Shown: in pieces, positions 6,914 through 12,142 of the stretch
Position numbering within the stretch: position 1 is the stretch's first letter
Layout: every line of letters begins with the position of its first letter
Source: Actinomycetota bacterium
GTDB taxonomy: Bacteria; Actinomycetota; Thermoleophilia; Solirubrobacterales; Solirubrobacteraceae
Assembly (NCBI GenBank): GCA_005884115.1
Contig: VAXW01000003.1
Location: forward strand, 310,001-374,000
Reading direction: 5' to 3'
DNA: 64,000 bases
Made by a program: the position numbers and the translations under genes
The notes under the pieces: model-generated
The model's database searches: none
Seen by the model: only the letters and a program-made list of their open reading frames with translations
Told to the model about the DNA's origin: nothing

Positions 6914-7819
6914 ATGCCGTCGCTGCTGGATCTGACAAGCCAGGGGGACGTCGGGACGATCTCCGACGAGTCGAAGCTCGCCTCCGTGACGCTCATGACC
7001 CCCCAGCAGCTGTACGAGCTGTGGGAGCGTCAGAACTGGCAGTCGCACACGATCGACCTCTCCCAGGACGTGCGCGACTGGCAGCGGATGGACGCCGATT
7101 TGCGCTCGCGCCTGGCGTGGAACCTGTCGTCGTTCTTCGTCGGCGAGGAGCGCGTCACGACCCAGTTCTCGGGCCTGGTGATGGCTTACGAGAGCCAGAG
7201 CGAAGAGGCGTTCCTGGCCACCCAGCAGGTCGATGAGGCCCGCCATGCGCAGCACTTCAACCGCTTCTACGAGCAGGTGCTCGGTCTCGACGGCACTTTC
7301 GAGGATCGCCTGCAGCGGGCGCGGGACGATCTGAACGCGGCGTTCATCGAGATGTTCGACGGCGTACTCGTCGAGTGGGGGCAGCGCCTGATCGAGAACC
7401 CGAGCGATATCGAGGCGAAGGTCGACTTCGTGACGCTGTATCACATGATCATCGAGGGCACGCTCGCGCTGACGGGCCAGTACTTCCTCACCGACTTCAT
7501 GGAGCGAAAGCAGATCCTTCCCGGGTGGGTGGAGGGCTTCAAGCTGATCTCCCAGGACGAGCACCGCCACGTCGCCTACGGGACCTGGTTCCTGCGCGAG
7601 AAGGCCGCCGACCCCGCGCTGAGGAGGCGCATCGCCGAGCGACTGGTCGAGCTGATGCCGCTCGCGAGCGCAGTGCTCGTGCCACAGGGGGCGGATCCAG
7701 ACGACTACTCGATCCTCGACTACTCGATGCAGGAGACAAACATGTTCGCCTTCAACGCGCTCAACCGCCGCCTGAAGGTGATCGGCGTGGATCTTGCGGC
7801 CGTGCAGGCGGCTGCGTAG
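6914..7819 (+). CDS. R2-like ligand-binding oxidase (ribonucleotide reductase R2 fold)
   Basis: This 301-residue ferritin-like carboxylate protein carries the six metal ligands in R2 order: E78 (GEE), E108 and H111 (DEARH), E181 (MIIEG), E216 and H219 (QDEHRH). Two further residues fit the R2lox subgroup rather than true R2: V81, three residues after the first Glu, and Y176, five residues before E181. These match the Val and Tyr that form the ether cross-link beside the Mn/Fe site in characterised R2lox proteins. No NrdA-type large subunit lies nearby. A very strong SD (AAGGAGAAGG) precedes the ATG. Automated annotation would probably call it a ribonucleotide reductase beta subunit; I prefer an oxidase of unknown substrate. 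Confidence 0.8.
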   Translation: MPSLLDLTSQGDVGTISDESKLASVTLMTPQQLYELWERQNWQSHTIDLSQDVRDWQRMDADLRSRLAWNLSSFFVGEERVTTQFSGLVMAYESQSEEAFLATQQVDEARHAQHFNRFYEQVLGLDGTFEDRLQRARDDLNAAFIEMFDGVLVEWGQRLIENPSDIEAKVDFVTLYHMIIEGTLALTGQYFLTDFMERKQILPGWVEGFKLISQDEHRHVAYGTWFLREKAADPALRRRIAERLVELMPLASAVLVPQGADPDDYSILDYSMQETNMFAFNALNRRLKVIGVDLAAVQAAA

Positions 7820-8025
7820 AGCTCGGCGCGGCGCAGCGAGCTGGCAGGCCCTGCGTCGCGAGCAGGCGCCGCCCAAGGGCGCGCCGCTCACGGCTCTCGG
7901 GCGCGCGGCGGGTTGGGAGTCTCGCGCGGAGGAGTGCGGTGCGACGAGCTCGGCCGCGGCAGCCGGCCACGGCGTGAGCGGCGGGGACGGTTGACATAAC
8001 GCCGGTCGTCCGCCTCCTGCGCTAG
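7820..8025. other. intergenic region upstream of the riboswitch
   Basis: I see no gene in this stretch. The ORF-track entries here are short shadow frames without SD sequences. A TTGACA hexamer occurs at 7991-7996 and a TAGAGT at 8023-8028, but the 26-bp spacing is too long for an ordinary promoter pair, so the promoter of the downstream riboswitch transcript is only loosely located here. Confidence 0.4.
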
Positions 8026-8192
8026 AGTGCGCCTCGTTCTGATCACGCCGAGTCTCCGTCTCCGCGTCGGTGGCGGGGAGCGGGGGACCCAATGGTCACT
8101 GCGGTGGCCGGGGGCGAATCGCCGCCAGGGCGCGGCGTAGCGCACTTCGCGCGAGCCCGACAGCTAACCCCGTAGGCGCCACGAGAGGGACC
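8026..8192 (+). promoter_or_regulatory. c-di-AMP riboswitch (ydaO-yuaA type)
   Basis: The conserved blocks of the ydaO-yuaA riboswitch appear in order: GGGGGACCCA at 8082, GGGGGCGAATC at 8110, and the diagnostic GAGCCCGACAGCTAACCCCGTAGGC at 8152-8176, followed by GAGAGGGACC. A terminal stem may pair CTCGT near 8031 with ACGAG near 8181. The family senses cyclic di-AMP. In actinobacteria it usually precedes cell-wall hydrolase or resuscitation-factor genes. The next gene on the same strand begins at 8459 and encodes a small secreted protein, so this aptamer probably controls it. Boundaries are approximate. Confidence 0.85.
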
Positions 8193-8458
8193 AGTTTGGC
8201 CTTGTGCCGAGGTGCGTCCGACACCCGTTCCTCCGAACGCGCTCCAACCGCGCGTCGTCGGCGCGAGCCTTGCTCCAGGTGGTGCCTGGGCGCAGCCTCA
8301 TACAAACGTGCAGGCGCCGCCGAACGGGCTCATCGCATGAGCGAACGGCGCCGATGCGTTTGCGTTGGGTGGTTGCGGCTGCGTGCCTTCGCGCGTTTGC
8401 CCGCAGCAAAGGAGGAGCGCCTCGGCGGTCCGTCATCTATCTCCAGGAAGGCCTAGGA
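8193..8458 (+). other. long leader between the riboswitch and its gene
   Basis: About 270 bases separate the aptamer from the ATG. It contains a perfect short inverted repeat GCTCATCGCATGAGC around 8329-8343 and an isolated strong SD-like AAAGGAGGAG near 8407 with no start codon behind it. I see no classical terminator with a T tract, so how the riboswitch controls expression is not evident. The track ORF from 8204 passes through this leader, but its N-terminal part looks non-coding. Confidence 0.4.
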
Positions 8459-8908
8459 ATGCTCAAGACGAACTCTGTTCCGCGCTTCGTGCTGCTCGCG
8501 AGCGTGGCCGTACTGTGCCTCGCTGCCCCAAGCGCACTGGCCGCCAAGGGCACGAGCGGGGGAACTCACGCCGGCGGAGGAGGCGGCACGAGCGCCACCA
8601 GCAGCATCAGCCTCGTCGTGCTCAACTCCCCCGATGGCCTGGCGCATTGGGGCGGGGAAGTGACGTTCAACGTCTCAACGACCGCAACAGACCAGCCGTT
8701 CGTCAACCTGCTCTGCTACCAGAACGGCGTCTTGGTGGCCGAAGGCTGGAAGGGCTACTTCGCCGAAGCTCGGGAAAGCAGCTACAACTTCGTGCTCCGT
8801 TCCGGAGCGTGGCAGAGCGGAGCGGCCGACTGCACCGCCTGGCTCGACATGGCCACGAGGCATGGCTGGAAGCAGCTCGCCTCCACGAGCTTCCACGTGT
8901 ACGCGTAA
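8459..8908 (+). CDS. small secreted protein under riboswitch control, function unknown
   Basis: The ATG at 8459 is preceded by AGGAAGG with a 7-nt spacer and opens with a Sec signal peptide (FVLLASVAVLCLAAPSALAA), giving 149 residues. The track start at 8204 would place this signal peptide inside the protein and is unlikely. After cleavage comes a Gly/Thr/Ser-rich linker and a domain of about 100 residues with alternating beta-type hydrophobic pattern and two cysteines (LLCYQNG and ADCTAW), consistent with a small disulphide-stabilised beta-sandwich. No catalytic motif is visible. Because riboswitches of this class usually control cell-wall remodelling genes, a wall- or surface-associated role is an inference only. 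Confidence 0.8.
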   Translation: MLKTNSVPRFVLLASVAVLCLAAPSALAAKGTSGGTHAGGGGGTSATSSISLVVLNSPDGLAHWGGEVTFNVSTTATDQPFVNLLCYQNGVLVAEGWKGYFAEARESSYNFVLRSGAWQSGAADCTAWLDMATRHGWKQLASTSFHVYA

Positions 8909-8944
8909 AGAGCGGTCGAGTCGTCCTCGGAGTCGAGAGAGAAA

Positions 8945-8970
8945 GAGGCCCCGGCTTTCGCCGGGGCCTC
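8945..8970. terminator. bidirectional terminator between convergent genes
   Basis: A perfect 11-bp stem, GAGGCCCCGGC and GCCGGGGCCTC, with a TTTC loop sits between the stop of the riboswitch-controlled gene (8908) and the stop of the minus-strand gene (9001). It probably terminates both convergent transcripts. Confidence 0.85.
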
Positions 8971-9000
8971 CATGTTCAAGACAGCTGCGCCTTTCCGCGA

Positions 9001-11256
9001 TCAGTCCGTGATCGAGACGTTCGACTTCTCGCAGTGAGAGGCCGGGTTTTCGAGGTTGCTGTCTGTGTATTCGACCTTCCATGAGTATTCTCCGGCAGCG
9101 CCCCCGGCTGAGCCATCGGGCTTGGTACCCACGAAGAACGACGTGTTGCTCGTGTTGAACGCCTGAGGACTCGTCGCTTCCGAGAACGTCGTTTCGTATT
9201 TCTGCCCGGCCACCGCAGTGCCTTCGCATTTGCCGCCCGGGAACAGGGTGACGGTGAGTTTGCCATTGAGGTTGGCGTCCCCCGTCACGACCACCCGATC
9301 GTTGGGAAGCCACCTTTGAGCCGACGAGATACTGGCTTTGCCGGTGACGGTAACCGTCTCGGTGCCGCTCGTATCCGGGCAGCTCGTCGACGTTGCGGCG
9401 TTGGTGTTCGAGCCGGTTCCGTCGCCTGGGTAGGACGCGACGAATGTGTAGGTTCCGATTCCGTCGCTTACTTTGGTCGTGTAGCTCGTCGGACCATATC
9501 CGGTCGTCGTGTTGTCACCGCTGACTGTCACCGAAGATGGCGACGTCGCCTTGGTTTCCGAACAACCGCCGCTTTTCGGACTGTAGAGGACCCAGCTGAT
9601 GCTGTGATCGGCCGCGGCCCCGTTTGTGGCGTTGATCGACGGGTAGGTCGAGTTGCCGCCGTTCGTGCCCGGCTGACTGGCCGTGCCTTCGAGGAACGCT
9701 TTGTCTTTGAGCGTGCTCCCGAGGACGCACGGACTCGCAGAACAGCTTGCCGAGGTCGTCAGTTTCGGCGTCACCGGGGCAACGGTGAAGCACTCATTTT
9801 CTCCGTTGTCGTCGGCAGGTTTGACGCCTGCTTTTTCGGATTCGGCATTCGGTTCGAAGTGGGCCGTCCAGCAGTACCGTCCCACGGACGTCAGGTTTGC
9901 CGTGCCGGATACGAACGCTTCCGGGTTCGATTCGTTGCTCACGGTCCTGCTCGTCACCTGGACGCCTTTGGTTTTGTCGCACGAGCCGGTCGCGATCGGA
10001 CCACACAGGTACCAGGCCAACGTCCCGCCCCAGACTTTCGTCCCGGTGACCGTCAACGTGGCCGTGTCGGTGCCCGAGGAGACCGTGCCGGTACCGATGC
10101 TGCCCGGCGAGGCACTGCCGCCGTTTGCGGTGTCGCCGGCTTTCGTCGCGAGAGTCGTTTTGCATTCCCCGAGCACGCCCCTGGCGTAGTCGAACAACGT
10201 CGCGGTCAGAGACTGCGAGGAACGCGTGTCGCCGATGAAGGTGCTAAAGCACGAGGGCACGGTGCCCCCGGCGCCTTCGAACACCTTCGTGATGTCGATC
10301 CCGCCCTCGAAGAAGTCGGGTGGCACGACGGTGTGCCCCACGCCGAGCGTAGCGTCTGAGGTGAGCCACTTGGTTTTGATGTTGCCGTTGAAGGGCAGGG
10401 TTCCCGAGTTGGTGGTCGCGCAGATCGAATCTCCGCCTTCCAGGGCTTTCTTGCAGTCGGCGCCGCTTTTGATCGGCAGCCCGTCGCAACCGCCAGCTTT
10501 CGCGTTCGGGTTGTCGTGTGAGTCGATGCAACCGCTGGCACCGCCCGCCCAGCGGTAGGCGCTGATGCCGCTCACTCCTCCGCCGCTCGTGAATTCGGAC
10601 ACGACCAGGACGTCGCCGTCCTGATGGTTCCCGGTCCACGGAGTGTTCCCGGCCCCCGCCGTGCAGTTCGCTTCGCCCTGGAGGAACCAGAAGCCGACGT
10701 TGTTGTTGCCGTTGTCCTTGTTCTTATCGAGCCCGAAGTAGAGGATCTTGTCCCCCGAGGTCGGATCCGTGTATGACGCCGCGTAGGCGTTCATGATGTC
10801 GATCTTGCTGTTGACGTTGTTGTCCTTGTTGCATTCCCACCCGCCGGTGATGTTCAGGGTGTCCTTGCTGCCCGTCCCGTAGGTCGTGGTGTCGGCGGTG
10901 CAGAAGGTTTCCGACGTCGTGTTCGTCAGCGAACAGGTTTCGGTTCTGCTGACCTTTACGCCGAAGTCCCGGACGAAGCTCGCGGCCGTGAAGGGGCCGG
11001 CGGCATTGACCAGTGACGTGTTGGTCCCATTTTCGTTGAAGAGGCTGTCCCAGTCGTATTTCTGCGTTTCGCAGTTGGGCACGGTGCCGCACACGGTGCT
11101 GGTGTCGCCGTCGAGCTGGAATTTGAGATCGTGGACCGCGAGCGCGTTCGTGATCATGAAGACCCCGAGCGCGGCGACCGCGCCGACGAGTCCGAGAAGC
11201 AGCAGTCGGCGACGTCGCCGCCCGCCTCCGATAAATCCGAGCATGCGATGTCTCAT
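9001..11256 (-). CDS. large secreted protein, cysteine-containing and beta-rich
   Basis: The track start is a TTG; the ATG at 11256 is preceded by GGAGGGG about 9 bases upstream and is preferred, giving 751 residues. The N-terminus has an Arg-rich cluster and one hydrophobic segment (LLLLGLVGAVAALGVFMITNALA), a signal peptide or anchor. Residues about 30-330 form a domain with the pattern DTLNITGGWECN...DIMNAYAASY...ILYFGLD...VGFWFLQGE, which recurs in actinobacterial secreted proteins. The rest looks like several Ig-like beta domains (for example TATLTVTGTKVWGGTLAWYLCGP and TYTFVASYPGDG), each with paired cysteines. No LPXTG or C-terminal anchor is present. The gene is visibly richer in A/T, Asn and Thr than its neighbours. 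Function is unknown, probably a surface or extracellular protein. Confidence 0.8.
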   Translation of the reverse strand: MRHRMLGFIGGGRRRRRLLLLGLVGAVAALGVFMITNALAVHDLKFQLDGDTSTVCGTVPNCETQKYDWDSLFNENGTNTSLVNAAGPFTAASFVRDFGVKVSRTETCSLTNTTSETFCTADTTTYGTGSKDTLNITGGWECNKDNNVNSKIDIMNAYAASYTDPTSGDKILYFGLDKNKDNGNNNVGFWFLQGEANCTAGAGNTPWTGNHQDGDVLVVSEFTSGGGVSGISAYRWAGGASGCIDSHDNPNAKAGGCDGLPIKSGADCKKALEGGDSICATTNSGTLPFNGNIKTKWLTSDATLGVGHTVVPPDFFEGGIDITKVFEGAGGTVPSCFSTFIGDTRSSQSLTATLFDYARGVLGECKTTLATKAGDTANGGSASPGSIGTGTVSSGTDTATLTVTGTKVWGGTLAWYLCGPIATGSCDKTKGVQVTSRTVSNESNPEAFVSGTANLTSVGRYCWTAHFEPNAESEKAGVKPADDNGENECFTVAPVTPKLTTSASCSASPCVLGSTLKDKAFLEGTASQPGTNGGNSTYPSINATNGAAADHSISWVLYSPKSGGCSETKATSPSSVTVSGDNTTTGYGPTSYTTKVSDGIGTYTFVASYPGDGTGSNTNAATSTSCPDTSGTETVTVTGKASISSAQRWLPNDRVVVTGDANLNGKLTVTLFPGGKCEGTAVAGQKYETTFSEATSPQAFNTSNTSFFVGTKPDGSAGGAAGEYSWKVEYTDSNLENPASHCEKSNVSITD

Positions 11257-11389
11257 TGCGTCTTTCCCCTCCAAACGATCGCGCGGACCACCGATCAGCA
11301 GATTGACGAAGGCCGAGTGGCAGGCGCGAAATTTTGCGTCCGAGCGCCCGCGGAAAGCATTCCCCCGTGACCCTGGACATCCTTGTCAT

Positions 11390-11406
11390 AACCGCACTTT
11401 GCGGTT
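11390..11406. promoter_or_regulatory. perfect inverted repeat in the 5' region of the 751-residue protein gene
   Basis: AACCGCA and TGCGGTT form a perfect 7-bp inverted repeat with a 3-nt spacer, just downstream of a possible minus-strand promoter. It could be an operator bound by a dimeric repressor or a short RNA hairpin at the transcript start. Confidence 0.45.
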
Positions 11407-11414
11407 AAAACCCC

Positions 11415-11443
11415 AGCTAACACGCTTAGAGCTCGTTTGTCAA
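11415..11443 (-). promoter_or_regulatory. candidate promoter for the minus-strand secreted protein
   Basis: On the minus strand an exact TTGACA (complement of 11438-11443) is followed after 17 bases by TTAGCT (complement of 11415-11420). The -35 is ideal and the -10 is weak. The start codon lies about 160 bases downstream, leaving a leader that contains the 11390 inverted repeat. Confidence 0.4.
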
Positions 11444-11578
11444 GCGTCGCCGAGGGCCGGATAAGCGCCTCCGAGCGCCGAGGCTGTGCCTACGCACAGG
11501 TTCCAGGCGAGAACGCGACTGGCCGCTGCGGTCCACGCTGATGTCCGCAAGGCGCTGCGGCCCTCTAGGCTGTCCGCG

Positions 11579-12142
11579 ATGGCCATAAGCACCAACCAGT
11601 TCAAGAACGGGAACCACATCGAGGTCGAGGGGACGATCTTCAAGATCCTCGAGTTCCAGCACGTCAAGCCGGGCAAGGGGGGCGCGTTCGTGCGCACGAA
11701 GCTGCGCAGGGCAACGGACGGCAACGTGATCGAGCGGACGTTCAGGGCGGGCGAGAAGTTCCGCGCGGTTCACACCGAGTCGCGCAAGATGCAGTTCCTG
11801 TACGCGGATGGAATTGACGCGCATCTGATGGACGCGGAGTCCTTCGAGCAGATCGCTGTGCCCGAGCGGGGGGTGGCGGACGCGTTGCGCTGGTGCAGGC
11901 CGAGCAGCGAGGTCGAGGTGCTGTTCATCGACGGCCAGCCGGCTGACCTGCAGCTTCCAAGCGCGGTTGATCTCGAAGTCAGCCAGACCGATCCGGGAGT
12001 GCGCGGCGACTCGGTCTCGAGCGGTGGCACCAAGCCGGCCACGCTGGAGACCGGCGCGGTGATCCAGGTCCCGCTGTTCGTCGAGCGGGGTGAGCGCATC
12101 CGTGTCGACACGCGCTCGGGCGAGTACGTGGCTCGCGCATAG
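11579..12142 (+). CDS. efp: translation elongation factor P
   Basis: The track ORF begins upstream; the ATG at 11579 matches the family start (MAISTNQFKNGNHIEVEG) and yields 187 residues, the normal length. The N-terminal KOW-like domain carries the tip loop KPGKGGAFVRTK with the lysine that is modified in some bacteria. The C-terminal OB domains end with TGAVIQVPLFVERGERIRVDTRSGEY, the family signature. EF-P relieves ribosome stalling at polyproline stretches, which are plentiful in this genome, for example in the protein at 62144. It heads the efp-nusB-xseB group. Confidence 0.97.
   Translation: MAISTNQFKNGNHIEVEGTIFKILEFQHVKPGKGGAFVRTKLRRATDGNVIERTFRAGEKFRAVHTESRKMQFLYADGIDAHLMDAESFEQIAVPERGVADALRWCRPSSEVEVLFIDGQPADLQLPSAVDLEVSQTDPGVRGDSVSSGGTKPATLETGAVIQVPLFVERGERIRVDTRSGEYVARA

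Follow-up and report, generated by a model that had tools for sequence, protein, structure and literature searches.

In Streptomyces coelicolor, binding of c-di-AMP by the rpfA riboswitch leads to premature transcription termination (PMC10117811), although this riboswitch has no canonical terminator (PMC9960051). The nlpC riboswitch of Corynebacterium glutamicum, which controls the gene of a cell-wall protein, likewise has no canonical terminator and probably acts on translation (PMC9960051). The lack of a canonical terminator is thus already on record for c-di-AMP riboswitches of actinobacteria (PMC9960051). We describe here a locus of this kind in a 64-kb stretch of DNA (the window) from an actinobacterium of the Solirubrobacteraceae. 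Its leader resembles that of rpfA in being of the actinobacterial type, in having no canonical terminator and in standing before a gene for a secreted protein, but the rpfA product is a lysozyme-like muralytic enzyme, whereas the window protein has no recognised enzyme domain. With nlpC it shares the missing canonical terminator. The translational mode proposed for nlpC fits the arrangement seen in most of the genus's other riboswitches, in which the start codon lies next to the aptamer; in the window, by contrast, about 250 nt separate the aptamer from the Shine-Dalgarno sequence (SD), whose modelled accessibility does not track the state of the aptamer.

Our preferred reading, to which we assign a probability of about 0.55, is that an established riboswitch module stands before a laterally acquired gene for a surface protein and probably represses it at high c-di-AMP. 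The features of the locus are given in Table 1.

Table 1. Features of the riboswitch locus, in coordinates of the window
Feature	Position	Strand	Basis or remark
Possible -10 element TAGAGT, 5' of the aptamer	8023-8028	+	Read from sequence; weak
c-di-AMP riboswitch aptamer (RF00379), full length	8036-8192	+	Covariance-model match; pair-preserving changes in close relatives
Long leader from aptamer to start codon, strongly structured	8193-8458	+	Fold MFE -137.4, z -2.83
Frame open from a GTG, same frame as the small gene	8204-8458	+	Non-coding look
Small secreted protein of 149 aa, putative beta-sandwich, invariant C86 and C125	8459-8908	+	Translation, nine-sequence alignment, AlphaFold2
Terminator-like hairpin between the convergent genes	8944-8971	. 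(T-rich tail on - strand)	12 pairs, 10 G-C
Large secreted protein, listed at 757 aa, with an uncertain start codon	9001-11274	-	Conserved convergent partner of the small gene

The aptamer and its relatives in the genus and family

A search of the window with Infernal and all Rfam models yields RF00379 (c-di-AMP riboswitch, ydaO/yuaA) as the sole match above the gathering score. At 59.6 bits (E 2.8e-11) it exceeds the cut-off of 38 bits, and it covers model positions 1-134 of 134. The initial annotation had recognised the core ydaO-yuaA blocks at 8082-8176 and had proposed an Infernal run with the Rfam ydaO-yuaA model; the blocks fall inside the full-length match. In an alignment of six close relatives, 4 of 41 predicted pairs have both partners changed and are still paired, a modest count; a C-G pair of the window aptamer, for instance, is U-A in its paralogue at locus L005. 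Judged by its sequence, the element at 8036-8192 is a genuine c-di-AMP riboswitch, which resembles others of RF00379 along the whole model, in its sequence as in its structure, and in its position in the leader of a secreted-protein gene. It differs from them in that a gene of unknown family, and not one for a wall hydrolase, lies downstream, and in its long leader without a terminator. Given that the genome encodes a protein with a DAC domain (c-di-AMP synthase, 96 bits), synthesis of c-di-AMP is likely. The aptamer probably still binds its ligand. We consider it highly improbable that it is a decayed relic that has lost c-di-AMP binding: its alignment to the model does contain two non-standard pairs and its pairing with this gene occurs in a single genome, yet the match is full length and well over the cut-off, the core blocks are intact, and pairs have been kept through changes among relatives.

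The window genome holds five RF00379 matches, and the other four precede genes for NlpC/P60, M23 peptidase, DPBB/RlpA-like lytic transglycosylase and Ig/TIG/GHL15 (L005) proteins. All 24 genus genomes carry RF00379, with one to six copies each, and the 101 matches of the genus were sorted by downstream gene. By inspection, nearly all show an SD-like motif together with a start codon at about 60 nt or less from the aptamer core, which suggests translational control there; the window layout differs, and the window copy and L005, both in the window genome, are the only clear exceptions to the short spacing. Copies of the RlpA class (e.g. L004, 1501-1668) have their start codon about 10 nt past the closing helix of the aptamer and lack an SD of their own. 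The AGG in this helix may take on that role, which would allow direct translational control.

The leaders of the window and of L005 are paralogous: over 213 nt they share 81% identity, and the similarity runs from about 20 nt 5' of the aptamer to about 28 nt 3' of it. At L005 the riboswitch (1501-1653) is separated by 287 nt from the Ig/TIG/GHL15 gene, which begins at 1941, and a frame that opens with a GTG just 3' of the aptamer closes in an ATGA shared with the start of that gene. When the window leader is searched against 146 genomes of the family, the nearest aptamers outside the window genome belong to other genera, G264 (84%, 84% and 82%) and G307 (82%), whereas the best match in its own genus, at 80-81%, is shorter and has a far poorer E-value. 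The G264 copies precede genes for two GH16 proteins, an FN3/beta-helix protein and two NlpC-type proteins, and the G307 copy a GH16 gene. In an aptamer tree the G264 and G307 copies group with the window copy and L005; the rows of this tree were chosen by similarity, and its support is hence weak. The aptamers at L170, L171 and L175 lie 5' of genes for secreted GH16 enzymes, in two of the family's genera (G264 and G307); a limited literature search found no report that pairs a c-di-AMP riboswitch with a glycoside hydrolase.

Two further ideas were considered and set aside. Descent of the window aptamer from the PRDLA class of the genus is disfavoured because aptamers of other genera are closer and the tree, similarity-chosen rows included, places the window copy and L005 with those. 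A search of the leader for a relic of the PRDLA peptidoglycan-binding gene turned up nothing convincing, the best E being about 0.001-0.01 among many weak matches. One 150-aa query detected no PRDLA gene in the window genome, which is 88% complete. Neither L005 nor the window copy is syntenic with other riboswitch sites.

The small secreted protein, its spread and its insertion site

The small gene starts 7 nt 3' of the SD motif AGGAAGG (8445-8451), and its product has a hydrophobic, signal-peptide-like N-terminus, both read from the sequence. The protein has no match in Pfam or NCBIfam, in agreement with the earlier observation that it bears no hydrolase motif; by these searches it is neither a cell-wall hydrolase nor an Rpf protein, the products that define the actinobacterial c-di-AMP wall-hydrolase regulon. 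The alignment of nine sequences contains 20 invariant columns, among them both cysteines (C86 and C125) and an ADCTA motif. An AlphaFold2 model built from four sequences is all-beta with seven strands, at low confidence (mean pLDDT 65). Foldseek matches it weakly to Ig-like and carbohydrate-binding beta-sandwich domains such as 8wae, a porphyran-binding CBM (TM by target 0.54-0.55); the likeness lies in the seven-strand beta model, while identity to such domains is 12-17%, Pfam gives no match, and a PDB profile search finds nothing significant. The protein is a putative beta-sandwich, and a role at the surface or in polysaccharide binding is a guess that fits.

The gene is absent from the 145 other genomes of the family. 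Of a sample of 398 further genomes of the class, 3 have it, all three of one other family; as the window genome is 88% complete and the class was covered by a sample, absences are not final. A scan of 85,462 species genomes with a single query sequence, which detects close relatives only, adds three relatives at 53-55% in MAGs labelled Chloroflexi. This patchy spread suggests that the small gene was acquired laterally. The window arrangement recurs in all five relatives with enough contig (L006, L008, L136, L137 and L138; the contig of L007 ends too early): there, too, a homologue of the large secreted protein is encoded convergently to the small gene. These homologues show 32-54% identity, and the large protein has no Pfam match. 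The nearest relatives of the gene pair are in other families and probably in another phylum. At L136 (5303-6347) and L137 (4996-6089) a tandem pair of small genes stands beside the large-protein gene. In the Chloroflexi-labelled MAGs (L006-L008) a short Flp/Fap-pilin-like gene lies just 5' of the small gene, scoring 32.1 bits against Pfam Flp_Fap, just below the cut-off of 32.2.

In the window, the aptamer and the gene pair are placed between an nrdF-like gene and efp. The orthologous interval measures 0.1-7.3 kb in seven genomes of the genus, where it is either empty or filled by other genes; the large gene is missing there in all seven, and none of the RF00379 matches of these genomes lies on a contig carrying the site. 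Mobile-element ends were sought at the flanks of the insertion and only short imperfect repeats were seen. The interval (7820-11580 in the window; L051-L056 and L126) varies in its genes by species and has the look of an insertion hot spot.

Given that the small gene is on the same strand as the riboswitch, that nothing intervenes, and that the next gene is convergent behind a terminator-like hairpin, it is the sole gene left for the riboswitch to control. That it is so controlled, and the direction and the level of that control, are inferences. Conservation gives this no support, since aptamer and gene are paired in one genome only. The comparison of relatives that the initial annotation had called for went against a conserved pair: the other family genomes lack the gene, and RF00379 is found at none of the loci of its relatives, be it in the other family of the class or in the Chloroflexi-labelled MAGs. 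The suggestion of a new member of the c-di-AMP wall set therefore stands as to the riboswitch, which is real, and falls as to the link between aptamer and gene, which is not conserved, so that membership would amount at most to recruitment at the level of the species. The adjacency of aptamer and small gene is real but species-specific, and neither the type of leader nor the missing terminator is new.

The long leader and the level of control

A consensus scan finds no sigma-70 promoter upstream of the aptamer. The TTGACA at 7991-7996 is 26 nt from the possible -10 element, too distant to act as its -35, and TACAGT occurs at the matching place 5' of the L005 aptamer. From the end of the aptamer to the ATG we count 266 nt, and a terminator scan of 7800-9050 finds no intrinsic terminator between aptamer and small gene, the sole terminator-like site in that range being the hairpin 3' of the gene (8944-8971). 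The gap of about 270 nt with no obvious terminator, noted at the outset, is thereby confirmed, but it is less out of the ordinary than the initial annotation held. The gap at L005 is longer still, and from core to start the distance is 212, 196 and 242 nt for the two GH16 copies and the FN3/beta-helix copy of G264, against 297 nt in the window and 318 nt at L005, and terminator-less cases are published (PMC9960051). Since L005 and the G264 aptamers also have long leaders, such a leader is not unique to the window. Its first 28 nt or so are similar in the window and L005; beyond them it matches neither the L005 leader nor the upstream regions of the small gene's relatives.

This divergence bears on whether the aptamer, intact or recently intact, might be uncoupled from a small gene that uses its own promoter within the 266-nt leader. 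The aptamer would then have arrived at the site without its gene, and the relatives' small genes have no riboswitch; the confinement of the pair to one genome, and the modelled accessibility of the SD, which barely shifts with the state of the aptamer, point the same way. Yet the leader shows nothing promoter-like in a scan for sites of the sigma-70 type, aptamer and small gene are separated by neither a terminator nor another gene, and similar long leaders exist at L005 and in G264. We regard uncoupling as possible, though rather unlikely, and keep to control by the riboswitch.

As to its level, the modelled accessibility of the SD region (8443-8449, the motif itself being at 8445-8451) is 0.31 in the free leader; forcing the main aptamer helices gives 0.32, and masking the 5' part gives 0.34. 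Direct occlusion of the SD is not supported, given that modelled accessibility is independent of the aptamer state, and the leader is predicted to fold on its own; together these favour transcriptional attenuation. With moderate confidence, control would be exerted by attenuation in the long leader and not by hiding the ribosome-binding site.

Translation could also be controlled further upstream, with the aptamer gating GTG 8204 and ribosomes reaching the small gene in frame, as an N-extended protein, or by coupling. The frame from this GTG is open into the small gene, and its position is where related genes start; L005 has a GTG at the matching place, with a frame that overlaps the ATG of the next gene by 4 nt, most other copies of the genus begin translation right after the aptamer, and C. 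glutamicum is reported to have a c-di-AMP riboswitch that acts on translation (PMC9960051). However, the frame is not coding-like: GC by codon position is 0.67/0.65/0.72, as compared with 0.59/0.55/0.84 in the small gene, and at L005 the third position reaches 0.61. The chance that such a frame stays open is about 0.28 in the window and 0.12 at L005, 85 residues would stand ahead of the signal-peptide-like start, and the gap from SD to GTG is long. Translation from the leader frame is therefore quite doubtful, and attenuation remains our preferred level of control.

Proposed course of control and its meaning

Within the family, a subgroup of aptamers precedes secreted enzymes that act on the wall or on polysaccharides, and in this species one copy of this subgroup has come to sit between the nrdF-like gene and efp, directly before the gene of the small protein. 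High c-di-AMP would most likely lower expression of the small protein, probably because transcription is stopped inside the long leader, as for Streptomyces rpfA. The protein itself probably acts at the cell surface, where its large secreted partner may act with it.

If this control is real, a surface protein that is not a hydrolase joins the putative c-di-AMP-responsive genes of actinobacteria, the paralogue and the close relatives add secreted glycosidases (GHL15 and GH16) to that set, and the locus would exemplify a riboswitch that, after duplication in its genome, came to stand before an unrelated gene of probable lateral origin. Tentatively, and at odds that we put low, promoter-aptamer modules may move as units within the family, landing before new genes for surface proteins or polysaccharide enzymes (GH16, GHL15, the small protein). 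Should they do so, duplication of the riboswitch would bring new genes under c-di-AMP, which would govern a programme of extracellular polysaccharide and surface functions beyond peptidoglycan hydrolases.
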